Of a DNA stretch of 64,000 nt, positions 5,669-34,404 are shown piece by piece; positions within the stretch are counted from its first letter, which is position 1; each line of letters begins with the position of its first letter. The position numbers and the translations under genes were made by a program. The stretch lies in contig NZ_HF570108.1 of assembly GCF_000297395.2 (NCBI RefSeq), positions 695,685-759,684 on the forward strand, in the 5' to 3' direction. The DNA is from Micromonospora lupini str. Lupac 08. Lineage in GTDB: Bacteria; Actinomycetota; Actinomycetes; Mycobacteriales; Micromonosporaceae. The notes beneath the pieces were generated by a model. The model worked only from the letters and a program-made list of their open reading frames with translations, ran no database searches and was not told the DNA's origin.

Positions 5669-7048
5669 TCAGCTGCGGCTCCATCGTTGGTTGGCCGCGC
5701 CGTTGCAGTCCCAGATCTGGACGCGCGTGCCGTTGGCCGTACCGCTGCCGACCACGTCCAGGCACCGGCCCGAACCAACGCCGGTGATCGAGCCGTCGGC
5801 GTTGAACCGCCATTTCTGGTTGGACTGGCCGTTGCAGTCCCAAATGATCACCGAGCTGCCGTTCGCGGTGCTGGCGCCGTTGACGTCCAGGCACTTGCCG
5901 CCGAAGACGCGCAGCTCCTGGGCCGCGGTCGAGGTCCAGCTCTGGTTGCTCTGGCTGTGGCAGTCCCAGATGATCGCCGCCGTGCCGTTGGTCTGCGCGG
6001 CGCCGTTGACGTCCAGGCACCGGCCGGAGGTCCCGTTGCGCAGGGCCGACGTGCCACCCGCGGGCGGGGTGGTCGGGCTCGCGGTCGGCGACGCGGTCGG
6101 CGACACGGTCGGGCTCGGCGTGGGGTCGGTGCTTCCGAACTGGGTGAAGAACCTCCACACCTCGCCCTTGGTCCAGGTCCTGGCGCCGCTGTCCCCGCCG
6201 CCGTCCACCGGGCCGGGGCCGTGCCCACCGTCGAAGGCGGCCCACACCACCGGATAGCCGGACCGGCAGCCGGAGTAGGTGGTGGTGATGTGGGTCAGGC
6301 TGCCCGCTCGTGGCTCGGGCGGGTTCTGCGCGGTGCACCCGTTGTTGCGGACGAACCTGTCCCGCAGGGACCGCCCGGCGGAGATGTTGAGCACCGGGTC
6401 CCCGATGCCGTGGATCCCCATGTACGCGATGGGTTGGGTGCCGCCGCTGCACCCGCTGAGCTGCCCGCCGGAGTAGACCGCGACGGCGCGGAAGACGCCG
6501 GCCCGGGAGCAGGCCAGCGAATAGCTCATGCCCCCGCCGTAGCTGAAGCCGAGCGCGAAGAGCTGCGTCGTGTCGACACACAGGTCCGCCTCGATCAGGC
6601 TGATCATGTTGTCGACGAAGGTGACGTCCTGGCCGTTGGGGTTGGCCCAGCCGTTGCCGTTGCCCTGGGGGGCGACGAAAATGGTGCTGTTGTTCGCCTG
6701 CTGCCGCAGCCCGTAGTAGGACCAGGCCGCCCCGTCCGAGCCGCCGCCGTCGACGTCGTTCATGGTGCCGCCGTTCCAGTGGAATCCGAAGATCAACCGG
6801 TACGGGTGGTTGCGGTCGTAGTTGTCGGGGATCCGCAGGATGAAGCTACGGTTCTGGCCGCTGCTCTGGATGGACCGTTGACCGCTCGTCAACGTGGGCG
6901 CCTTGCCGCACCCGGCGGTCGCTGCCGCCGGAACCATGTCCGCGGCCGACGGGGTGCTCAGACCGCCGGTCAGCGCCGTCGCGCCCACGGTGGCGACGAG
7001 AAGCGCCGCCGTCGCGAGTGAAGCAAGGATGGGTCTACGTCTTGTCAT
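5669..7048 (-). CDS. Secreted CE1/PHB-depolymerase-type esterase with ricin-type lectin domain
   Basis: A 459-residue secreted alpha/beta-hydrolase of the poly(3-hydroxybutyrate) depolymerase/feruloyl esterase group (LpqC/CE1-like). A signal peptide spans about residues 1-35 (TAALLVATVGATALTGGLST). The catalytic domain shows RSFILRIPDNYDRNHPYRLI and the nucleophile elbow GFSYGG; a His near GGHGPGP is a candidate for the triad. A Pro/Thr/Ser linker (SPTVSPTASPTASP) joins it to a ~130-residue CBM13/ricin B domain with NQSW, NQKW and NQRW repeats. The ATG at 7048 was chosen because the signal peptide begins there and GGGAG lies upstream. Likely removes ester-linked groups (for example feruloyl or acetyl) from plant polysaccharide; PHB hydrolysis is the alternative. 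Confidence 0.87.
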   Translation of the reverse strand: MTRRRPILASLATAALLVATVGATALTGGLSTPSAADMVPAAATAGCGKAPTLTSGQRSIQSSGQNRSFILRIPDNYDRNHPYRLIFGFHWNGGTMNDVDGGGSDGAAWSYYGLRQQANNSTIFVAPQGNGNGWANPNGQDVTFVDNMISLIEADLCVDTTQLFALGFSYGGGMSYSLACSRAGVFRAVAVYSGGQLSGCSGGTQPIAYMGIHGIGDPVLNISAGRSLRDRFVRNNGCTAQNPPEPRAGSLTHITTTYSGCRSGYPVVWAAFDGGHGPGPVDGGGDSGARTWTKGEVWRFFTQFGSTDPTPSPTVSPTASPTASPTTPPAGGTSALRNGTSGRCLDVNGAAQTNGTAAIIWDCHSQSNQSWTSTAAQELRVFGGKCLDVNGASTANGSSVIIWDCNGQSNQKWRFNADGSITGVGSGRCLDVVGSGTANGTRVQIWDCNGAANQRWSRS

Positions 7049-7502
7049 GATGGGGCTCCCGCCACTCGGCACGAACTGATTCAGGTACAGGGGTCCACGG
7101 CGACTCCCACGCCGCCACGGCACGCCACTCCCGGTCGCCCCCGCCGGCCGCACTCGCCGCGGACGACACTCCGGAAGGCGCGAGGTGGCCACGGCGCCCG
7201 GCCGGCTCATCGCCACAGGCTCTCGCCACTGGTCTCGCTGCCCGGGCGCGACCAGGTGGTCGTCGAGTCGCTGGTGGCCCACACCCCGGGGTGCCCGAAC
7301 ACCACGCGCCCGACCGTCGGACGGCGCCGGAGCACTCGCCTCGGCGTCGAATCGATTCGGCCCGACGCTAGATCGCACAGTGAAATATGTCAATGCCGTG
7401 TCCGGCAGGTTGCGGCCCGGAGAGCCGGTCCGGTGGCGGCCGTGCGACGCCACACGACCTCGGTCGTGGCGTGACCCCGCCCAAGGGGGCAGACTCGACG
7501 CC
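7049..7502. other. Intergenic: esterase promoter region
   Basis: About 450 bases between the divergent esterase and histidine kinase genes. It holds the esterase promoter and palindrome at 7346-7393. I see no gene. Confidence 0.6.
7346..7393 (-). promoter_or_regulatory. Esterase promoter with overlapping palindromic operator
   Basis: On the minus strand: -35 TTGACA (7388-7393), 17-base spacer, -10 TAGCGT (7365-7370). The expected transcription start falls inside the near-palindrome GTCGAATCGATTCGGC (7346-7361 as read on the plus strand). The same palindrome, perfect, lies upstream of the GH2 gene at 47060-47075. A site at the start point is typical of repression, for example by a LacI-type regulator. 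Confidence 0.6.
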
Positions 7503-21795: not shown

Positions 21796-22167
21796 ATGCG
21801 TTATCTGGTGATTCTCAAAGCAGCACAGCCAGACGGCCCGCCGCCTGCCGAGCTGATGGAGGCCATCGCGAAACTCGGCATGGACGCGACGAACGCCGGC
21901 GTGATGCTCGACATGGGCGGGCTCGCTCCCGCCATGAACAGCGTCCGGATCGCGGTCGACGCCGGTGGGCTCAGCGTCGTCGACGGTCCCTTCGCCGAGG
22001 CAAAGGAGCTGATCAGCTACGTGGTGTACGACGTCCGCTCCAAGGAGGAAGCTGTCGAGTGGGCCGGCCGGTTCATGCGGCTGCACCGTGACCTGTGGCA
22101 GGGCTGGGAGGGGGAGGCTGAGGTCTCGCGGGTCTTCGGGCCGGAGGATTTCGCACCACAGGGATGA
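21796..22167 (+). CDS. DGPF (YCII-related) domain protein
   Basis: A 123-residue cytoplasmic protein of the YCII-related/DGPF family, here with VVDGPFAEAKELISYVVYDV. The fold is a ferredoxin-like dimer; its activity is unknown. The ATG at 21796 is preceded by GAGGAGAAG. It lies 37 bases before the ECF sigma gene. DGPF proteins are the defining neighbours of ECF42 sigma factors and are often their regulon members. Confidence 0.9.
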   Translation: MRYLVILKAAQPDGPPPAELMEAIAKLGMDATNAGVMLDMGGLAPAMNSVRIAVDAGGLSVVDGPFAEAKELISYVVYDVRSKEEAVEWAGRFMRLHRDLWQGWEGEAEVSRVFGPEDFAPQG

Positions 22168-22204: not shown

Positions 22205-23473
22205 ATGACGGCTACCGATCCCTATCGCGTTGTCGAGGCGGTCTGGCGGATCGAGGCGGCTCACCTCATCGCGAAGCTGACCCGGATGGTGCGTGACGTC
22301 GGCCTGGCCGAGGAGATCGCCCAGGACACCCTTGTCATCGCGCTTGAACAGTGGCCGAAGCAGGGCGTGCCGACGGATCCCGGGCCGTGGCTGATGGCTA
22401 CCGCCAAGCACCGGGCGATCGACCTCGTCCGGCGGCGAATCCGGTACGGCGAGAAGCTCGCCGAAATCGGCCGGGCCCTGGAGATCGCGCCGGTCGACGA
22501 GCAGGACGCCGTGGACGACGCGTTGGACGACCGCGTCGGCGACGACCTGCTGCGGCTGATCTTCATCTCCTGCCATCCGGTGCTGTCAACCGAGGCGCGC
22601 ACCGCGCTCACCCTGCGCGTGCTCGGCGGGCTGAGCACCGAGGAGATCGCCCGGGCCTTCCTCGTCGCCGAATCGACAGTCGGTCAACGGATCGTGCGGG
22701 CCAAGCGAACTCTGGCCGCCAAACGAGTGCCGTTCGAACTTCCGCCACCGGATCAACTCGCCCACCGGCTCACCTCGGTCCTGGAAGTCCTCTACCTGAT
22801 CTTCAACGAGGGATACTCGGCGACCGCCGGTCAGGACTGGATGCGGCCCGACCTCTGCCGGGAGGCGTTGCGGCTGGGCCGAGTGCTGGCCGGACTGATG
22901 CCGGAGCAGGCCGAGGTGCACGGGCTGGTGGCGCTGATGGAGATCCAATCGTCGCGGACGTGGGCGCGCACCGACGGAGCCGGTGCGGCAATTCTGCTCG
23001 GCGACCAGGACCGGGCCCGCTGGGACCGGCTGCTGATCCGGCGCGGCCTCGCCGCCCTGGCTCGGGCGCAGGAGATCGGCGGCATACTCGGACCGTTCGT
23101 GCTGCAGGCCGAAATCGCAGCCTGTCACGCCCGAGCCCGGTCCACGCAGGAGACCGACTGGTCACGAATTGCGGCACTCTACCTGGTGCTGTCCCACGTC
23201 TGGCCGTCACCGGTTGCCGAGTTGAATCGGGCGGTCGCGGTCGGAATGGCCGAAGGGGCGGCCGAGGGATTGAGGATTGCCGACAGGGTGCAGGCGAGTC
23301 GGGCGCTGGACCAGTACCCGCAGCTTCCCGCCGTACGCGCCGACCTCTTGGCGAAGCTCGGCCGGACGGCCGAGTCCCAGCAGGAGTACGCGCGAGCCGC
23401 CGCGCTGACCCGCAACGCCAAAGAGCGAGAGATCTTTCAGGCGAAGGCAGACAGCTGTAGCCCGGTCGACTGA
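22205..23473 (+). CDS. ECF sigma factor with long C-terminal extension (ECF42-like)
   Basis: A 422-residue sigma factor. Sigma2 (about 15-85) includes EEIAQDTLVIALEQWPKQGV and LMATAKHRAIDLVRRR. Sigma4 (about 115-170) includes LTLRVLGGLSTEEIARAFLV then GQRIVRAKRTLA. The remaining ~250 residues form a helical, TPR-like extension (LTSVLEVLYLIFNEGYSATA; PQLPAVRADLLAKLGR), typical of ECF42. Such factors lack an anti-sigma and are thought to be tuned through the extension. The ATG at 22205 aligns with the sigma2 start; an ATG at 22184 is possible. In an operon with the DGPF gene. Confidence 0.92.
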   Translation: MTATDPYRVVEAVWRIEAAHLIAKLTRMVRDVGLAEEIAQDTLVIALEQWPKQGVPTDPGPWLMATAKHRAIDLVRRRIRYGEKLAEIGRALEIAPVDEQDAVDDALDDRVGDDLLRLIFISCHPVLSTEARTALTLRVLGGLSTEEIARAFLVAESTVGQRIVRAKRTLAAKRVPFELPPPDQLAHRLTSVLEVLYLIFNEGYSATAGQDWMRPDLCREALRLGRVLAGLMPEQAEVHGLVALMEIQSSRTWARTDGAGAAILLGDQDRARWDRLLIRRGLAALARAQEIGGILGPFVLQAEIAACHARARSTQETDWSRIAALYLVLSHVWPSPVAELNRAVAVGMAEGAAEGLRIADRVQASRALDQYPQLPAVRADLLAKLGRTAESQQEYARAAALTRNAKEREIFQAKADSCSPVD

Positions 23474-23900: not shown

Positions 23901-24689
23901 GTCACCTCCACGTCGAGGGCCCCGGCGCGTAAGCGCCGGGGCCCAGGGTTACGGGTCAGAACACCATCTGCCGACTGGAACGTCGGTTCTTCGTATCCAC
24001 ACCAGCCGTCACTGACGGCAACGGGTGCGAGGATCGCATATGCGTGACCGGAGACCACCTCTCGTTCGATGGAAACTGCGGTGTCCGCCCGGCCTGACAT
24101 GACGGCCGAAAGCGGGCGATCCAACGGTGTACGGCCCTCCCTTTCCTCTGCATCTCTTCCAACGTGCCGACGTGCGGTCCGCCGGTGTCGGAGCCCACGC
24201 AACTTCATGGCCCCGCACACGTACGGCGAACATCAGCTGGAGCCCTGAGCGGTTCCTTGGCCCCACCTGCGGTGCCCCGTCGCGCATCACGCCGGGGCTG
24301 ACGTGCTCACTGCCGTTCTGGAGCAGAAACAGGGTCCTGCTCTGACGCCCGTCGTGACCTCACGGCCGGGCGGTCCGTCTGCGTCTTCGTATCCCTCTGC
24401 TCTCTACCTGAGGAACAGTATCCCTGGCTCTCAAGAATGTCTAGCCGTTTGAGCATAGATTTTCTGGGCTGCCCGCCGGGGGTCTCCTCGGGGGCCGTCG
24501 TGGGTCGCGGGACTGCTGGCCGTGGCCCACTGGCGCGTGGGGTCATTGGGCATGACCTGCCGCGAACACCGTCTGAGCAAGATCGCCAAAGATTTCGAAG
24601 AATATTTCTGGATGGCGGCAACCTGCGGGCGACGGATCGCATGTACCCCGATGTAAGCGACGATCGCCACGATCCATAGGGGTCCGGAA
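23901..24689. other. Long intergenic region, no gene seen
   Basis: Nearly 790 bases. Apart from the hairpin at 23917-23944, no frame on either strand has recognisable content or coding-like composition. The stretch 24410-24620 is more AT-rich than its surroundings and probably carries the promoter of the four-Cys lipoprotein gene; I could not pick a convincing -35/-10 pair. Confidence 0.5.
23917..23944 (-). promoter_or_regulatory. Perfect hairpin in the MerR gene leader
   Basis: GGGCCCCGGCGC (23917-23928), GTAA, GCGCCGGGGCCC (23933-23944). On the minus strand it ends about 16 bases before the MerR start codon and just upstream of its Shine-Dalgarno. It could act as a 5' leader structure, an operator, or a terminator of upstream transcription. 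Confidence 0.55.
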
Positions 24690-25394
24690 ATGTCTGCACG
24701 TCACCTCCTGTTGCTGCCCGTTGTCACTGTCCTCATTGGACTGTCCGCCTGCGACTCCGGGGAGCCGGCTGGTCCGAGCCCAACCGCATCCGCTCCGACG
24801 TCGGCTGCTGGGGCCCCCAGTGCGTCGCCCGCTGCGGCCTCGCCGGCGGCCGGTACTGCCGACTGCCCCACGGCGACGGCCCTCCAGACGCTTGTCGAGC
24901 TGCCGAAGGACTGGTCCTTCGGGGAAGTGAAGTGCTTCAAGGACTGGGCTACGGCCGATCCGCAGGGTCCGACGGCGGGTGACGGCGTCTACCTGTTCCG
25001 CTACGTGGCCGGCACGGGCTGGAAGTACTACGACCAGGGCAGTGACTGGGACTGCAAGGATCTCGGCATCAGCGAGGCGCCGTTCTGCGTCTCGGAGCCG
25101 ACGAAGTCGGCGCCGAAGTCGGCGCCGAAGCCGTCGAGCGGTACGGCCACGAGTGCCAAGTGCCCCTCGGCGAAGACCCTCGAGGCTCTGGTCGAACTTC
25201 CGAAGGGCTGGACGTTCGGCAGTGTCGACTGTGTCAAGGACTGGGCGGGAGCCGATCCGGAGGGCCCGGGCGTCGGTGACGGCTCGTACCTGTTCCACTT
25301 CGTGCCCGGCACGGGCTGGAAGTACTACGGCGATGGCAGTGGATACGACTGCGTGGACCTCGGCCTCAAGGAGGCGCCGTTCTGCATCTACTGA
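24690..25394 (+). CDS. Secreted lipoprotein with two tandem four-Cys domains
   Basis: A 234-residue protein. The lipobox is VLIGLSAC (lipidated Cys about residue 20), followed by a Ser/Ala/Pro-rich tether to about residue 55. Two homologous ~75-residue domains follow (about 57-131 and 157-233): each starts CP, has TLVELPKDWSFGEVKC or ALVELPKGWTFGSVDC, then YLFRYVAGTGWKYY or YLFHFVPGTGWKYY, and ends EAPFC. Four Cys per domain are conserved, probably two disulphides. A third copy is the extracellular part of the membrane protein at 26035-26529, next to a sigma gene. I recognise no known family; the role is unknown. A 14-bp terminator follows the stop. Confidence 0.85.
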   Translation: MSARHLLLLPVVTVLIGLSACDSGEPAGPSPTASAPTSAAGAPSASPAAASPAAGTADCPTATALQTLVELPKDWSFGEVKCFKDWATADPQGPTAGDGVYLFRYVAGTGWKYYDQGSDWDCKDLGISEAPFCVSEPTKSAPKSAPKPSSGTATSAKCPSAKTLEALVELPKGWTFGSVDCVKDWAGADPEGPGVGDGSYLFHFVPGTGWKYYGDGSGYDCVDLGLKEAPFCIY

Positions 25395-25415
25395 CCGGGT
25401 GACCGCTGTCGCTTG

Positions 25416-25449
25416 CTGTGGCGCACACCAGTTAAGGTGTGCGCCACAG
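25416..25449 (+). terminator. Terminator of four-Cys lipoprotein gene
   Basis: A perfect 14-bp stem CTGTGGCGCACACC (25416-25429) with 25436-25449, loop AGTTAA, 21 bases past the stop. It separates the lipoprotein transcript from the sigma gene. Confidence 0.8.
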
Positions 25450-25516
25450 TCAACCGGCCGCATCGACGCCGCCGCTGCCTGAACGACTTTGGGTACGTGG
25501 GGGGAACGAGCGCGGC

Positions 25517-26035
25517 ATGGCGGACTCCATAGACGATCTTTTCTGTGAGTTCGTGCGGACCCGCTCACCGGCGTTGCTGCGGACGGCGTTCCTGTTGACA
25601 GGTGACCGGCACCTGGCCGAGGACCTGGTGCAGGATGCGCTGGCCCGCACCCATCGGGGCCGACGGCGGCTGAATGATCCCGGGCACTTCGAGGCGTACA
25701 CCCGCACCGCCATGTACCACCAGCATGTGAGCTGGTGGCGGCGCCGCAAGGTGGCCGAGTCGTTGCCCGGGGAACTGGCCGACGTGGCGCAGCCCGGCAG
25801 TGACCATGCACGCCGTACGGATCTCAAGGTCGCCCTGCACCAGGCTCTCGCCCAACTCACGCAGCGGCAACGGGCCGTGCTGGTGGCACGGTTCTTCGAG
25901 GACCGCAGCGAGGCCGAGGCCGCGGAACTGTTGCAGTGCTCGGTCGGCACGATCAAGAGTCAAACCAGCAAAGCGCTGGCGCGCATGCGGCAGATAGCGC
26001 CGGATCTGCTCTCGGCCGTGATGGAGGAGGCCTGA
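25517..26035 (+). CDS. SigE-family ECF sigma factor
   Basis: A 172-residue ECF factor. Sigma2 (about 10-75) includes LLRTAFLLTGDRHLAEDLVQ and DALARTH. Sigma4 (about 110-165) includes LTQRQRAVLVARFFEDRSEA and SVGTIKSQTSKALARMR. It belongs to the SigE-type actinobacterial subfamily. The ATG at 25517 aligns with the family start. Its stop overlaps the next ATG by one base (TGATG), so the membrane protein gene that follows is translationally coupled and is the natural candidate for its anti-sigma or sensor. Confidence 0.92.
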   Translation: MADSIDDLFCEFVRTRSPALLRTAFLLTGDRHLAEDLVQDALARTHRGRRRLNDPGHFEAYTRTAMYHQHVSWWRRRKVAESLPGELADVAQPGSDHARRTDLKVALHQALAQLTQRQRAVLVARFFEDRSEAEAAELLQCSVGTIKSQTSKALARMRQIAPDLLSAVMEEA

Positions 26036-26529
26036 TGACCGACAACCTCGGGCCGCTACGTCAGGCCATGTCCGACCTGAGCGAGCTGGGCGGCACCGCC
26101 GACATGTACGAACGCACCCTGCGCAGATCGCGGCAGGTGCAACGACGCAGGGCGGTCGCCACCGGCGTCGCGGTGGCGGCGGTGTTCGCCATCGGCGGTA
26201 CGGCCACCTTCGCCACCCTGCACCGGCCCGACCCGCTGCTGCCGCCCGCAGCCACCCCCACCAGTGTCGACCCCCAAAAACCCACCTGTCCGTCGACTGA
26301 GAGCCTCGGGACCCTGGTCGAGCTGCCGGCGGGCTGGTCCTTCGCTTCCAGGCCGGTGGAGTGCGTCGAGACGTGGGCTGCCGTCGACGTGGAACGTCCG
26401 GACGACAACGCCATCATCTACCTGTTCCATTACACGGCCGGCACGGGCTGGCGACTCCAGGACCAGAGCACCGGATGGGACTGCAAGGAACTCGGCCTGA
26501 CCGAACCGGCAACGTTCTGCACGTCCTGA
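26035..26529 (+). CDS. Single-pass membrane protein with extracellular four-Cys domain, putative anti-sigma/sensor
   Basis: A 164-residue protein. Residues 1-40 are cytoplasmic and charged (MYERTLRRSRQVQRRRAV), residues about 41-62 form one TM (ATGVAVAAVFAIGGTATFA), and residues about 80-164 are outside. The outer domain has the same layout as the lipoprotein repeats upstream: CPSTESLGTLVELPAGWSF, then YLFHYTAGTGWRLQ, ending ATFC with four Cys. AGGAGG at 26024-26029 and a one-base overlap link it to the sigma gene. It has no HxxxCxxC zinc motif, so it is not a classical zinc anti-sigma factor. An anti-sigma or co-sensor role is inferred from coupling and topology only. Confidence 0.8.
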   Translation: MTDNLGPLRQAMSDLSELGGTADMYERTLRRSRQVQRRRAVATGVAVAAVFAIGGTATFATLHRPDPLLPPAATPTSVDPQKPTCPSTESLGTLVELPAGWSFASRPVECVETWAAVDVERPDDNAIIYLFHYTAGTGWRLQDQSTGWDCKELGLTEPATFCTS

Positions 26530-27573: not shown

Positions 27574-29739
27574 TTGGGAACGAATTCCCGCGGAACCGAG
27601 CGAACGGTGCCGTCCGGTACATCGAACGAGCAGTCCGGGAACGTGTCCGGATTGAGCGTCCAGGCCGGAGTCATCCACGGCGGTGTGCATTTCGGTGGCG
27701 CTTCCGTCGATCGTTCTCCGATCCCCCGGCAGCTACCCGCACCCTCGCCGAACTTCACCAACAGAACGAGCGAGCTGTCCGCACTGGACGGATACCTCGC
27801 CGAGCGGGGGAACCTCGTCGCCGTTCTGCTCGGGCCGGGCGGCGTGGGAAAGTCGGCACTGGCGAGGCAGTGGGCGCACGGCCGGCTGGACCGTTTCGTG
27901 GACGGGCAACTCTATGCCGACCTACGGGGGTTCAGCGGCGCCGAGCCCCTGGATCCGGGCGTGGTGCTGTCCGCCTTCCTCCGGGCCCTGGGGGTGGCCC
28001 CGGACCGGATCCCCTTGCACCTGGCAGAACAGGTCACCCTCTATCGCACGATGACCGCGAACAGCTCCCTACTGGTGGTCCTCGACGATGCGTACTCGGC
28101 AGCTCAGGTCAGGACGCTGCTGCCGGCGTCGACGTCGGCGGTGGTCGTGGTGACCAGCCGTCGGCGGCTGACCGGTTTGCTGCCCGACGGTGCGTGCCTG
28201 GTCGAGGTGGGTCCGTTGCCGGCTCCGGAAGCGGTGGAGTTGTTGGAGCGAGCCGTCGGTCGGGAGCGGATTCTCAAGGAGTTCGCGTCGGCGGAGGAGT
28301 TGGCGGGAATCTGTGGCGGATTGCCCATCGCGCTCGTCGTGGCGGCGGCGCGGCTGGCTTCTCGTCCCAAGTTGACAGTTCGTCGGATGGTCGCCGAACT
28401 GGCCGACGAGGCGCAGCGGCTGACCCGGCTTTCGGTGGTGGACGGGTTGTCGATCAGGACGACGTTCCAGTTCTCGTACCAGAGCTTGACGGCGGAGGCG
28501 TCGGCGTTGTACCGGAAGCTGGCTCTGCACCCGGGGGCGGAGTTCGGGATGGATCTGATCACGGCGGTGGCCGGAGCGGGCAGGGCCGGTGGGGCCCAGG
28601 TGGGCACAGTGGTGGGGGAGTTGCTGGACGCGAACCTGCTGGAGGAGGTGGCCGAGGATCGCTTCCGCTACCACGACCTCCTCCGGCTGTACGCGCGTGA
28701 GATGTCCGAGCAGGATGACCCGCCCGACGGGCGGCTGGCGGCTGTGCGCACGATGCTGGAGTTCTACCTCGCCGCCGCCCGCCGGGCGGACCTCGTGGTG
28801 ACTCCCTACCGGCGGCGGCTGCCGTACGTCTATCAAGATGCCTTGGACGGGCCACCCGAGTTCTCCGACCGGGCTGGTGCCCTCGGCTGGTTGGATCGGG
28901 AGCGGAGCAACCTGCTGGAAGCCGGCCGGGTCGCCTTCGATCTGGGCCTTCATGAGCTGGCCTGGCAGCTCAGTGACGTGACCTGGCCGCTCCTTCTCTA
29001 TTTCAAGGGCTACCAAGAGCGACTGAAGGTCGACGAGCGTGGTGTGCGGGCCGCCCAGGCATGGGGAAACGTCTGGGCCGAGGCGGTCATGCTCAAACGA
29101 CTGGGCCGGGCGTGCAGCCGCGTCGGCGCCCACGAGGCCGCCGAGCGGCATGGTCGGGCGGCGGTCGACCGGTATCGACAAGCGGGCGACATCCAGGGCG
29201 TCATCGACGCCGAGGAGGGGTTGGCCACCCTCTATGCCGATACCGGCCGCGAGGAACAGGCGGCGGAGGCGTACACCCGGGTCCTCGCCGGACGGCGGGC
29301 CCTGCCGAATGTCCGAAGCGTGGGCCTGTCCTGTCTCAACCTGGGCATGCTCCGGACCCGGACCGGCCGACCGGCAGAGGCGTTACCGCTGTTGGTGGAG
29401 GCCGGGCAGATCTTCGCCGAGCTGTCCGACGTCGACCCCTACAACGCCGCCCGGGTGTTGATCGGCCTCGCCGATGTGTACCTCGGCGTCGGCGACCTGG
29501 GCGCCGCCGAGGAGTCCGCCACTGAGGCGGTACGCCGGATGGCCGAACTCGGAGCCGACAGTGAACGGGCAGAGGCGGTGTTCCTGCTCGGTCGCATCGC
29601 CCGGCGGCGCGGCGACGACGAGGCCGCACGACAACACTATCGGGAGGCCGCCGCCGTCTTCGCCACACTCGCCGCGCCCCGGCTGCCCGACGTGCTCCGC
29701 CGGCTTGACGAGTTGGACGGCAGCGCGGACGAGCAATAG
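27574..29739 (+). CDS. NLR-like NB-ARC/TPR protein with N-terminal amyloid signalling-type motif
   Basis: A 721-residue cytoplasmic STAND ATPase. Near residues 18-40 is SNEQSGNVSGLSVQAGVIHG followed by GVHF, matching the C-terminal motif of the preceding small protein. The NB-ARC domain spans about 60-400: P-loop VLLGPGGVGKSALA, Walker B SLLVVLDDAY, and GLPIALVVAAARLAS for the GLPL box. TPR repeats fill about 470-710. No catalytic effector domain is present in the protein itself, which fits signalling through the shared motif. Start uncertain: TTG at 27574 or GTG at 27607; both keep the motif. Probably co-transcribed with the effector gene. Confidence 0.88.
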   Translation: MGTNSRGTERTVPSGTSNEQSGNVSGLSVQAGVIHGGVHFGGASVDRSPIPRQLPAPSPNFTNRTSELSALDGYLAERGNLVAVLLGPGGVGKSALARQWAHGRLDRFVDGQLYADLRGFSGAEPLDPGVVLSAFLRALGVAPDRIPLHLAEQVTLYRTMTANSSLLVVLDDAYSAAQVRTLLPASTSAVVVVTSRRRLTGLLPDGACLVEVGPLPAPEAVELLERAVGRERILKEFASAEELAGICGGLPIALVVAAARLASRPKLTVRRMVAELADEAQRLTRLSVVDGLSIRTTFQFSYQSLTAEASALYRKLALHPGAEFGMDLITAVAGAGRAGGAQVGTVVGELLDANLLEEVAEDRFRYHDLLRLYAREMSEQDDPPDGRLAAVRTMLEFYLAAARRADLVVTPYRRRLPYVYQDALDGPPEFSDRAGALGWLDRERSNLLEAGRVAFDLGLHELAWQLSDVTWPLLLYFKGYQERLKVDERGVRAAQAWGNVWAEAVMLKRLGRACSRVGAHEAAERHGRAAVDRYRQAGDIQGVIDAEEGLATLYADTGREEQAAEAYTRVLAGRRALPNVRSVGLSCLNLGMLRTRTGRPAEALPLLVEAGQIFAELSDVDPYNAARVLIGLADVYLGVGDLGAAEESATEAVRRMAELGADSERAEAVFLLGRIARRRGDDEAARQHYREAAAVFATLAAPRLPDVLRRLDELDGSADEQ

Positions 29740-31509: not shown

Positions 31510-34404
31510 ATGGAGTTCACGATTCTGGGTCCCACGAAACTCACGGTCGAGGGGCGGTCGATCCCGCTGGGCGCGGCGAAGCAGCGCGGCCTACTCGCCG
31601 TCCTTCTCTACCACGCCGGCAATCCGGTGCGGATCGAGACGATCGTGGAATTTCTGTGGCAGGACTCGGTTGTCGATGCTCGCCGCCCGCTGCTCTACGC
31701 GCTGGCCAGTCGAGTGCGCGCCGTCCTGAGGGCGGTCGGTCTGCAGGATGCCCTGGTGCGGGTGCCCGGTACCGGCGCCTACCGCCTGACCGTCGATCCT
31801 GATCTGGTCGACTACCACCGTTTCCTGCGGTTGACCGCCGAGGCGCGGCAGGCGGTCGACCGAAATCAGCATGACCGGTGCGTCGCCCTGCTCACCCGAG
31901 CGGACGAACTGTGGCGGGGTGATCCTCTCGCAGACCTGCGTGGCGCGCGGGGCGAACACCTTCGACGGGATATGCGAGAAAGGCAATTCGGTGCAGCGAA
32001 AATGCTGGCGGAAAGCGAGTTGGCTACCGGCCAACACAACCGTGCGCTGGCCCGGCTGGAGCCGCTGCTGATCGAGAACCCGCTCGACGAGGGCCTGGCG
32101 AGGTTGTGGGTCACCGCTCTCCATGCGGCCGGTCGCACCTACGACGCGCGGGACTTCCTGGTCGCCTACCGCCGCCGCTACCGCCGTACGATGCGCACCG
32201 ATCCGGTACTGGACATCGCGGATCTCCTGCCCGCCGCGTCCGCCAGGAACCACCTCGCCATCGTGGACGCGGCGGCACCGGTGCCCCGGCAGTTGCCGAA
32301 CGACGTACCCGACTACACCGGACACCGTGGGCTGCTGGACGAGTTGGACGCCCTCGCCGCCGGCGAGGGCACCTCGAAGGTGGTGGTGCTGACCGGGATG
32401 CCCGGGGTGGGCAAGACGACCCTCGCCGGGCAGTGGGGGCATCGCCGGCAGGGGTGGTTCCCCGACGGGCAGCTCTACCTCAACGCGGAGGCGCACGGCC
32501 CGGTGCCGCCCGTTGGTGCGCAGGAAGCGCTGCACCGCTTCCTCGTCGCCCTGGGTGTCCCCGCGGATCGGGTGCCCGCCGATTCCCATCGGCGCGTCGA
32601 GCTGTACCACCGGCTGATGGATGGGCGGAGGATGCTCGTCGTGCTGGACAACGTCGTCGACTCCGACCAGGCGCAGCAGCTCTTGCCCCGCTCCGACACC
32701 AGCCTCACGGTGGTGATCAGTCGCAATCGACTCCGCGGGTTGAGTGTCCGGCACGGCATCCGCAGCCTCACCGTCGCACCCCTGTCACACCTCGAACGAC
32801 ATCAGATGCTCGGCCGCATCATCGGGCCAGAACGCACCGGCGCGGAGCCCGCAGCACTGGAGACGCTGGCCGCGCTGTCGGGCGGGCTGCCACTCGCGTT
32901 GCGGGTCATCGGCGAGCACGTGGTCTCCCGGCCCCAGGCACGGCTCGGCGATCTGGCCGACGAACTCGCCGGGCGGCTGCTCGACATCGAGGGCGACGAC
33001 ACCGACGAGATGACCCTGCGGATCGTCTTCGCCTGGTCGGTCAACGCTCTCGCCCCGATGCCCGCCCGGCTCTTCCTTCGCCTCGGCCTTTTTCCGGGCG
33101 GCACCATCGGGGCCGAGGCCGCAGCGGCGATGCTGGCGGTGGACGTGGCCGGGGCTGAGCGGGCCCTCGACCAACTCGCCCGCGCCCACCTGGTCAACCA
33201 CGACACCGTCCGGCGGTATCGGATGCATGACCTGCTGCGCCGGTACGCCGCCGACCGGGCCCAGGCCGAGGAGCCTGCCGAGCAGCGGCGAGCCGCACTG
33301 CACCGGCTGTTGGACTGGTACCTGCTCACGGCCGTGAACGCCGTCACTGCCCTGGAGCCGGACCACGCCCCCGTCCCTGACCTGCCCGACGCGGGCGCGG
33401 TGACACCGATGACCTTCACCTCGGACGGCGCCGCCCTGCGATGGTGCGAGACGGAGCGGACCAACGTGCTCGCCCTGGTCCGCAGCGCGGCGGTAGAAGG
33501 TTTCCACCGGTATGCCTGGCAGACCGTCGACACGGTCCACGAGGTCTTCGACCGCTCCGGAAGCCAGGAGGACATGCGGGAGATGTTGCGCATCGCCCTC
33601 GACGCCGCGACTGCCGACGGTCACGACCCGGGCCGGGTGGGCACCCTCGTCAACCTTGGGGCCACCTACTTCACCACCCACGACTACGACCGCGCCGGCA
33701 ACCTGTTCGCCGAGGCTCTGCGTCTCGCCGAGGAGAACGGCTTCGCCGAGCTGCAGACGGTCTGCCGACACAATCTCGCCTCCGTGCACCTGCGGACCGG
33801 TGCGATCGGTACGGCCATCGAGACCTTCCGGGCGGTCCTGACCGACTGTCGCGCGGCCGAGAACGCGACCGGTGAGGCGTACACGCTCTACCACCTCGCT
33901 GACGCCCACCGCCAGCTCGGACAGTACGACCAGGCCCGTCTTCTCTACCAGCAGGCCCTTGCCATCTGGGACCGCATCGGCTCTCTGCGCGGCCGAAGCC
34001 TCAACCGTGTTCGGCTCGCCGAGCTCAGCCTCGACACGGGCCAGCCCGAGATGGCCCTCGACCTCGGCCGCGCCGCTCTCGACCTGCACGACCGGGTCAC
34101 CGACGACACGATCCGTTGCGACGCCCTCATCGTCGTGGCCGAGGCCCAACTCCGCCTGGGTCGGCACCGTGACGCGCTGGCCGAGGCCACCCTCGCCCGG
34201 GTGACCGGCGACGAGCTGGGCGACCCGATACGCCAGGCACGCGCCCTCGCCGTACTGGCGGAGGCCCTACGCGCGGTCGGCGACCACGACAACGCTCTCA
34301 GTCGGGGCCGGGAAGCCCTCGACCTGCTCGACGACACCGACGACCCGCAGCGACAGGCCATCCGGGAGCGGATCTCCGCGCACCGCATCCCCCAGGATCG
34401 GTGA
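31510..34404 (+). CDS. AfsR/SARP-family regulator (OmpR-HTH, BTAD, NB-ARC, TPR)
   Basis: A 964-residue transcription activator. A winged-helix DNA-binding domain (about 1-95; MEFTILGPTKLTVEGRSIPL) is followed by a BTAD (about 96-245), an NB-ARC ATPase with P-loop TGMPGVGKTTLAGQW near residue 296, Walker B RMLVVLDNVVDS and GLPLALRVIGEHV, then TPR repeats (about 690-950). Architecture and length match AfsR, which activates secondary metabolism after phosphorylation. No biosynthetic cluster is in the window, so the target is unknown. GGCGGAG precedes the ATG at 31510. Confidence 0.93.
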   Translation: MEFTILGPTKLTVEGRSIPLGAAKQRGLLAVLLYHAGNPVRIETIVEFLWQDSVVDARRPLLYALASRVRAVLRAVGLQDALVRVPGTGAYRLTVDPDLVDYHRFLRLTAEARQAVDRNQHDRCVALLTRADELWRGDPLADLRGARGEHLRRDMRERQFGAAKMLAESELATGQHNRALARLEPLLIENPLDEGLARLWVTALHAAGRTYDARDFLVAYRRRYRRTMRTDPVLDIADLLPAASARNHLAIVDAAAPVPRQLPNDVPDYTGHRGLLDELDALAAGEGTSKVVVLTGMPGVGKTTLAGQWGHRRQGWFPDGQLYLNAEAHGPVPPVGAQEALHRFLVALGVPADRVPADSHRRVELYHRLMDGRRMLVVLDNVVDSDQAQQLLPRSDTSLTVVISRNRLRGLSVRHGIRSLTVAPLSHLERHQMLGRIIGPERTGAEPAALETLAALSGGLPLALRVIGEHVVSRPQARLGDLADELAGRLLDIEGDDTDEMTLRIVFAWSVNALAPMPARLFLRLGLFPGGTIGAEAAAAMLAVDVAGAERALDQLARAHLVNHDTVRRYRMHDLLRRYAADRAQAEEPAEQRRAALHRLLDWYLLTAVNAVTALEPDHAPVPDLPDAGAVTPMTFTSDGAALRWCETERTNVLALVRSAAVEGFHRYAWQTVDTVHEVFDRSGSQEDMREMLRIALDAATADGHDPGRVGTLVNLGATYFTTHDYDRAGNLFAEALRLAEENGFAELQTVCRHNLASVHLRTGAIGTAIETFRAVLTDCRAAENATGEAYTLYHLADAHRQLGQYDQARLLYQQALAIWDRIGSLRGRSLNRVRLAELSLDTGQPEMALDLGRAALDLHDRVTDDTIRCDALIVVAEAQLRLGRHRDALAEATLARVTGDELGDPIRQARALAVLAEALRAVGDHDNALSRGREALDLLDDTDDPQRQAIRERISAHRIPQDR

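Follow-up and report, generated by a model that had tools for sequence, protein, structure and literature searches.

We describe here a module of three genes in Micromonospora lupini str. Lupac 08, located within a 64,000-nucleotide stretch of contig NZ_HF570108.1 (positions 695,685 to 759,684 of the forward strand) that we refer to as the window. The module encodes, in order, a lipoprotein, an extracytoplasmic function (ECF) sigma factor of the SigE family, and a membrane protein with one transmembrane (TM) segment, and the same four-Cys domain is present twice in the lipoprotein and once in the membrane protein, where it is the only extracellular domain. The gene layout and the sharing of the domain by lipoprotein and membrane protein recur in other genomes of the family, a promoter-like element upstream of the lipoprotein gene is conserved, and the N-terminal module of the membrane protein is associated with SigE-family sigma genes elsewhere. 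Our tentative reading, to which we give a little under an even chance, is that the sigma factor and the membrane protein form an ECF sigma/membrane anti-sigma pair, and that the lipoprotein is their self-matched partner outside the cell and feeds back on the sensor. The features of the locus in window coordinates are as follows.

24616..24648 (+): ECF-like promoter, with CGGCAACC at 24616-24623, GTACCC at 24643-24648, 19 nucleotides (nt) between them, and the core GCATGTACCC at 24639-24648.
24690..25394 (+): lipoprotein gene, 234 amino acids (aa), with two tandem four-Cys domains and the lipobox LSAC (Cys21).
24858..25091 (+): four-Cys domain copy 1, in the lipoprotein, from own-genome search and alignment.
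25155..25391 (+): four-Cys domain copy 2, in the lipoprotein, from own-genome search and alignment.
25416..25449 (no strand): perfect dyad CTGTGGCGCACACC-agttaa-GGTGTGCGCCACAG, read from the sequence, between the lipoprotein and sigma genes.
25517..26035 (+): SigE-family ECF sigma factor gene (TIGR02983, 4.8e-49; Pfam Sigma70_r2 and Sigma70_r4_2).
26035..26529 (+): one-TM membrane protein, a putative anti-sigma factor, 164 aa, with its ATG within the sigma stop (TGATG).
26035..26148 (+): cytoplasmic segment of the membrane protein, residues 1-38, with two helices predicted at low confidence.
26149..26220 (+): TM segment, approximately residues 39-62, read by eye from the sequence, with positive residues on its N side.
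26281..26526 (+): four-Cys domain copy 3, the sole ectodomain of the membrane protein (predicted fold with a predicted local distance difference test score, pLDDT, of 93.6 and a predicted template modelling score, pTM, of 0.84).

The 172-aa sigma factor contains Sigma70_r2 (residues 13-78) and Sigma70_r4_2 (residues 105-157) without a long C-terminal extension, and scores 166.4 bits against the NCBIfam model TIGR02983, above the curated cut-off of 141.55, which places it in the SigE family. An initial annotation of this DNA had described the lipoprotein with its two tandem domains, at coordinates that proved exact, as well as the TGATG overlap between the sigma and membrane genes and the third domain copy as sole ectodomain, both of which are seen in the window.

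The similarity of the three domains is far above chance, because a search of the 7.3 Mb Micromonospora genome with one lipoprotein domain, at an E-value (E) of up to 10, returns exactly three places (5.6e-53, 1.2e-33, and 9.8e-22), namely the two lipoprotein domains and the membrane ectodomain. The four Cys residues are invariant in all 59 aligned copies, as are a Pro after the first Cys, the residues WA after the second Cys, one Phe, one Trp, and one Gly; the alignment holds 59 of 67 copies, seven very similar ones having been left out together with the divergent L038:673-924, whose extracted sequence was cut off before its last Cys. In a second set, consisting of module copies cut out by profile, 67 of 68 have at least four Cys. 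The core YLF(R/H)(Y/F)..GTGWK given in the initial annotation is exact in both lipoprotein copies, but the membrane copy departs from it and reads YLFHYTAGTGWR. Structure prediction, proposed in the same annotation, gives a confident AlphaFold model of the ectodomain copy (scores listed above), in which a beta sheet is accompanied by one short helix. No solved relative is found by sequence at E up to 1, Foldseek returns no matches to the model at E up to 0.001, and the best result of a second structural comparison is to ARC6 (5d9r; Z 5.6, root-mean-square deviation 2.7, 62 aligned, with residues 66-82 barely covered), with cystatin-like and NTF2-like rows at Z of about 3.8-4.8. In the absence of a confident fold match or a solved relative, the fold thus gives no ligand. 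None of the Pfam and NCBIfam models matches the domain above cut-off. Matches to TIGR03931 and GltJ were dismissed as compositional, the stretch inspected in the window lipoprotein for TIGR03931 (20-94) being mostly a Pro/Ser/Thr/Ala linker.

The lipoprotein, sigma, and membrane genes lie in the same order in 29 loci (the window, L004-L008, L046-L065, L090, L108, and L109). These loci were picked for holding the domain and a sigma gene, and their complete co-occurrence is therefore not a frequency. A genome survey for co-occurrence, which had also been proposed, finds the three-gene module in 28 of 300 sampled genomes of the family, the 29th locus (L008) having come from a separate search. The sigma stop overlaps the membrane start in every locus (26 as TGATG and three as ATGA), and the lipoprotein has one domain copy in 19 loci and two in 10. 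By tblastn at 1e-8 the lipoprotein and sigma genes are found in all 28 other loci and the membrane protein gene in 26, whereas each of 11 genes that flank the module in the window turns up in no more than one. The three genes thus travel together and their neighbours do not, within the stretches covered; for distant neighbours the test says less, because 20 of the 28 other loci span just 5.5-5.8 kb.

The pattern CGGCAACC-N19-GTACC is present upstream of the lipoprotein ATG in 28 of the 29 loci, at positions from -64 to -156 and at -71 to -75 in 23 of these (420 nt were searched, with spacings of 18 to 20 allowed), and the pattern occurs in none of 5800 mononucleotide-shuffled upstream windows. 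The boxes are conserved by construction of this count (hence a frequency of 1.00), but the fixed 19-nt spacing and the flanking TGTACC context are not, and in 12 divergent loci the spacing is kept even though the mean majority-base frequency outside the boxes is 0.54-0.68. Genome-wide, where our statements come from pattern and BLAST searches, the short pattern CGGCAACC-N18-20-GTACC gives 116 sites versus 75 for a reversed control in the 28 module genomes, and 84 versus 72 in 28 others, and because it is so near background we rely on position, spacing, and a longer match. Counted by eye, the longer site CGGCAACC-N16-CATGTACC is found in 23 of the 28 module genomes, with 23 of its 26 sites before the lipoprotein gene and three elsewhere, and in none of 28 Micromonospora genomes without the module (in G171 the boxes are one base further apart); the controls belong to one genus and the module genomes to three.

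This conservation makes it likely that the lipoprotein belongs to the sigma regulon, a question raised in the initial annotation, and the lipoprotein gene is the only constant predicted target. A search of the M. lupini genome with the 106-nt upstream region gives a single further clear match (87% over 91 nt, E 1.2e-24; the runner-up is at E 0.36), and this second copy lies before a gene encoding a secreted PL42-type lyase (L112, 4548-5909 on the minus strand; C4 at ~4.77 Mb). The product matches BNR_4 (PF15892, 1.3e-83), its best solved relatives are L-rhamnose-alpha-1,4-D-glucuronate lyases (2.1e-53), and there is a weaker likeness to Bacteroides alpha-L-rhamnosidases (NF052497, 168.6 bits, far under the cut-off of 700). 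The active-site residues Asp83, His85, His105, Tyr150, and Arg166 given for FoRham1 in the excerpted account (PMC10951650) are all identical in the alignment to 7esl, in which the chain numbers are two higher than in the paper. The same arrangement of promoter copy and lyase gene is present in G187, which has the closest module, and the lyase gene is likely a second target of the sigma factor, although the link to plant gums rests on these two closely related genomes. We also note that in G252 (L164, G252:C47:146478) an extra site precedes a gene that reads by eye like a response regulator. For the sigma gene itself a vegetative promoter (TTGCTG, TAAGGT) was considered and ruled out on its spacing of 14 nt. 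The dyad at 25416-25449, which may be a hairpin terminator or an operator, has 14-nt arms and a 6-nt centre. An alignment of 19 such gaps shows it preserved in most, with three of 20 predicted pairs changed on both sides and a slightly unfavourable covariation term (+0.18 kcal/mol).

The membrane protein is most likely the cognate anti-sigma factor, and of a known, little-studied kind without a zinc motif. The zinc motif of class I anti-sigma domains (ASDI) is HX3CX2C, and residues 1-38 of the membrane protein have neither Cys nor His, so that the motif is missing, as had been observed at the outset. Eleven positions (D3, R9, A11, L15, E17, G19, G20, D23, L29, S32, and R33) are invariant in an alignment of 28 of 30 homologues, the fragment L036 and L037 with its diverged ectodomain being left out. 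Nothing is above cut-off in a Pfam scan of the membrane protein; the 'antisigma' model NF052375 matches, at E up to 0.01, four of the 28 homologues (the strongest at 0.0017) and not the window protein, and the CU044_5270 family (NF038083) matches the window protein at 16 bits (E 0.0083), under its 100-bit cut-off, and 10 of the 28 homologues weakly at E up to 0.01 (best 8e-6).

A profile built from residues 1-66 (A3) matches nine places in the M. lupini genome at E up to 1, three of them below 0.001, and 17 genomes in a survey of 197 from the class at E up to 0.001, 14 of these outside the genus. At 27 loci matching A3, a sigma match ends within 100 nt upstream or overlaps in 19, lies 160-225 nt upstream in three, and is missing in five. 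Two of the 19 (L176 and L185) are the module itself, giving 17 further cases in 25 loci; when loci at E up to 0.001 are counted, the sigma gene is directly upstream in 18 of 21, and in 16 of 19 once the module loci are set aside. All 17 further sigma stretches match TIGR02983 better than any other family, 14 of them above cut-off, the exceptions being L180 (137.2), L193 (99.4, partial), and L188 (65.8), whereas the three sigma stretches lying farther upstream (L179, L190, and L198) are matched best, and above cut-off, by NF007227, and L179 and L198 have by eye a zinc-type anti-sigma segment. The ectodomains at the A3 loci differ and look unrelated in the stretches compared. The N-terminal module is, judging by sequence, a recurring partner of SigE-family sigma factors, and because diverged versions of it with other ectodomains adjoin SigE-family sigma genes in these 17 of 25 loci, we favour a cognate anti-sigma factor of a known kind. 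The anti-sigma-like role suggested in the initial annotation thus gains from the stop/start overlap and from the position of the N-terminal module downstream of sigma genes, but its proposal of a new type of anti-sigma factor is not supported for the cytoplasmic part, which belongs to this SigE-associated kind. The new part of the membrane protein is the four-Cys ectodomain.

We infer a circuit of binding, release, promoter recognition, and feedback. The cytoplasmic N-terminus of the membrane protein would hold the SigE-family sigma factor at the membrane, and a signal at the four-Cys ectodomain, most likely a bound extracellular ligand, would release it. As with other one-TM anti-sigma factors, this probably happens when the membrane protein is proteolysed. 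The freed sigma factor would then transcribe the lipoprotein gene from the conserved CGGCAACC-N19-GTACC element, whose recognition by this sigma factor we presume, and at loci with a short gap the sigma operon would probably also be transcribed by read-through. The lipoprotein would display one or two copies of the domain outside the cell and might bind either the ligand that the sensor binds or the sensor's ectodomain, and so feed back on the sensor; this is the least secure step. A receptor-decoy circuit, in which the chief conserved target of the sigma factor is a surface lipoprotein carrying one or two copies of the sigma system's own sensor domain, seems to us unlikely. If it is real, the lipoprotein would sequester the input ligand or block the receptor and would thereby determine at what level the response begins and how long it lasts. 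In the lineage that has the PL42-type lyase gene on the same promoter, the response might be to a plant polysaccharide capped with rhamnose and glucuronic acid (Rha-GlcA).

Several observations weigh against the main reading. The lipoprotein copy and the ectodomain of the same locus are closest kin in only three of the 29 loci and tied in one, and in the other 25 the ectodomain is nearer to that of another locus. The three are L109, where the lipoprotein copy is 97% identical (98% in nt) to its own ectodomain and the best other ectodomain is at 62%, L056 (88 versus 81), and L090 (62 versus 49), and the tie is L064 (76 and 76). Within the 16-locus clade that includes the window, own pairs are 46-61% identical compared with 78-94% for the best other ectodomain, and since own pairs are less alike than are ectodomains across loci, the lipoprotein domain and the ectodomain may bind different things. 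L109, with the most alike domains, is also the locus that lacks the promoter pattern, and the short pattern alone is close to background across the genomes. The cytoplasmic helices (residues 6-20 and 22-42) are predicted with a block mean pLDDT of 46-56 over residues 1-40, and profile A3 reaches only the 17 class genomes noted above. On the side of the main reading, a tree of 94 domains requires at least five changes of the 'membrane' label on well-supported branches, albeit from few columns and with many open forks. The count of own pairs speaks against lipoprotein and ectodomain being generally kept alike, and the fairest reading of these sequences is that the domains were exchanged or copied anew in some lineages but diverged in the majority. 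The shared ligand, or competition for it, put forward in the initial annotation is weakly supported, by the loci with closest own pairs and not by the large majority.

The distribution of the domain away from sigma genes adds to this. The family survey finds it in 60 of 300 genomes, and 63 of 64 matches of at least 97 bits are inside modules, the exception being in G226 (L085); the threshold is our own choice, and the next match down (G120, L086, 93.9 bits) is truncated and has no sigma gene beside it. Weaker matches lie mostly elsewhere: among 40 places (L070-L109), 34 have no sigma match in the stretch, L103 has only a partial, weak one, L104 and L106 have a sigma gene and the N-terminal module with a weak domain match, and L090, L108, and L109 are full modules. 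The stretches are 8-9 kb long (5.3 kb for L087 and 6.0 kb for L096), and the set omits five of the weakest places (two in G040 and one each in G016, G125, and G251). By eye, the copies away from sigma genes are mostly single-domain lipoproteins. Homologous domains lying mostly away from sigma genes had been named in the initial annotation among the grounds for rejecting its proposal, and this is not the situation for close copies, although it is for the weaker relatives. Because so many four-Cys lipoproteins have no sigma gene near, the older role of the domain is independent of sigma; the superfamily, as far as sequence relationships tell, is wider than the sigma link, with one branch tied to this sigma system. 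A class survey gives matches in four of 394 genomes, two in the same genus and two outside the family (L041 and L042; 2.9e-9 and 1.9e-7), the latter being C-terminal parts of LppP/LprE-type lipoproteins (PF14041) with no sigma match in their 3.2-kb loci; these resemble the module lipoprotein in being secreted lipoproteins with a weakly related domain, but differ in their extra PF14041 domain and in the lack of a sigma match over this distance.

Further four-Cys loci have arrangements of their own. In 15 genomes of the genus (L070-L084) a four-Cys lipoprotein of one domain stands apart, no sigma match being found within ~8 kb, and four of these genomes (G185, G217, G265, and G285) also hold the module. 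A looser promoter motif, sought at four-Cys lipoproteins away from sigma genes over the stretch that starts 300 nt ahead of each frame and runs as far as the domain, is seen only at L096. This locus (L096/L165, G283:C549 ~6777-7152) is a decayed relic in which the promoter and a frame-broken lipoprotein are left and no sigma or N-terminal module match is found in 9 kb. At L099, L100, and L107, in large genomes of the family, two or three short lipoprotein-like genes lie adjacent, each with a weakly related domain.

The main rival to feedback by the lipoprotein is an ordinary ECF sigma/anti-sigma switch in which the lipoprotein is a plain effector, for example in the cell envelope or in ligand capture, and the shared domain is a common secreted domain recruited into the sensor; we consider this quite possible. 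It sits easily with the four-Cys lipoproteins that have no sigma gene and with the 25 of 29 loci in which the two domain types are not closest kin, and the second promoter copy before the secreted lyase gene looks like an effector regulon. Recruitment also has a precedent in RsgI, with its carbohydrate-binding or enzyme domains, in the portion of PMC12203970 that deals with it. However, the likeness of own pairs at L109, L056, L064, and L090 (97, 88, 76, and 62% aa) suggests matching or re-copying in some lineages. Either role for the lipoprotein is compatible with a further possibility, which we think improbable, that the conserved element before its gene is some other regulatory site or a leader copied with the gene. 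Conservation does run past the boxes into the leader, and the copy at the lyase gene, whose 87% over 91 nt includes non-core bases, could be a simple recent duplication; nonetheless, the 19-nt spacing stays in the 12 divergent loci as the bases around the boxes drift, and the longer site is present in 23 of the 28 module genomes but in none of the Micromonospora genomes without the module, the boxes in G171 being one base too far apart.

The remaining alternative concerns the membrane protein, which could be a co-activator or anchor, or the sigma gene could be controlled mainly at transcription with the dyad at 25416-25449 as operator. We regard this as very unlikely. The missing zinc motif, the failure of the anti-sigma model to match above its cut-off, and the largely kept dyad between the lipoprotein and sigma genes are all in keeping with it, but the one-TM layout, the coupling in all 29 loci, and the occurrence of the N-terminal module with SigE-family sigma factors are the usual signs of an anti-sigma factor.

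Other genes in the window lie on both sides of the module. A YCII-domain protein gene (21850-22167, +) is directly 5' of another ECF-type sigma gene (22208-23473, +), whose product has a DUF6596 region, approximately 1-2 kb 5' of the lipoprotein gene; the two resemble the ECF42/DGPF pair, and the second sigma gene is present in one of the 28 other module loci (L046). Downstream are a gene for an NB-ARC/TPR protein (by Pfam; 27574-29739, +) and an open reading frame of 964 residues (31510-34404, +) that resembles a SARP-type regulator.

The module shares its general plan with membrane anti-sigma factors at large, in having a sigma-adjacent, overlapping gene (in all 29 loci) and one TM segment with the N-terminus inside, by eye. 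Among the closest known systems are the SigE-family (TIGR02983) sigma factors that have a one-TM protein encoded downstream, in some cases of the CU044_5270 kind; these share the sigma family and gene position and, in the 17 further loci, have a similar N-terminal module, but their ectodomains are other ones, unrelated-looking where compared. SigE-family sigma factors are present across the Actinomycetes sampled, and we found almost nothing on their regulation in the open-access literature searched; a self-contained module with a conserved promoter, and with a sensor and target that share a domain, offers a tractable test system for them. If the lipoprotein does feed back by domain mimicry, this would also be a simple natural design for adaptive gene switches. 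In the sigE-cseA-cseB-cseC operon of Streptomyces coelicolor, a lipoprotein gene likewise stands beside an ECF sigma gene and its product has a negative effect on signalling, but the signal runs through a two-component system, and we know of no sensor domain shared between the parts.

The predicted cytoplasmic helices are reminiscent of class II anti-sigma factors (ASDII), in which a two-helix cytoplasmic segment wraps sigma2 and sigma4, such as CnrY of the CnrH/CnrY pair, without being evidence for them; as described in the excerpts of PMC7406223 and PMC8103513, CnrY has a two-helix segment and is not of class I, and the cytoplasmic segment here is similarly short. This likeness is one of description and not of sequence comparison, with the helices here at low confidence, and the same excerpts describe neither a four-Cys ectodomain nor a lipoprotein partner. 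For an anti-sigma factor with exchangeable extracellular sensor domains the precedent, in the part of PMC12203970 consulted, is SigI/RsgI. The polysaccharide-sensing SigI/RsgI systems of Clostridium thermocellum, on the sections of PMC12203970 and PMC4711584 that treat them, have a TM anti-sigma factor whose cytoplasmic part is short and whose extracellular sensor domain is divergent, in some cases being a carbohydrate-binding module, and they are also autoregulated with polysaccharide-degrading targets. According to the same sections, SigI belongs to a different sigma group and RsgI has a periplasmic autocleavage domain, and a lipoprotein carrying the sensor domain in tandem is not described there. 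We did not find this layout in the open-access literature searched, a scope that leaves out most subscription papers. The parts of the M. lupini module are of known kinds, and what is new is that the sensor domain, which has no curated family, is present also in the sigma factor's own likely and conserved lipoprotein target.

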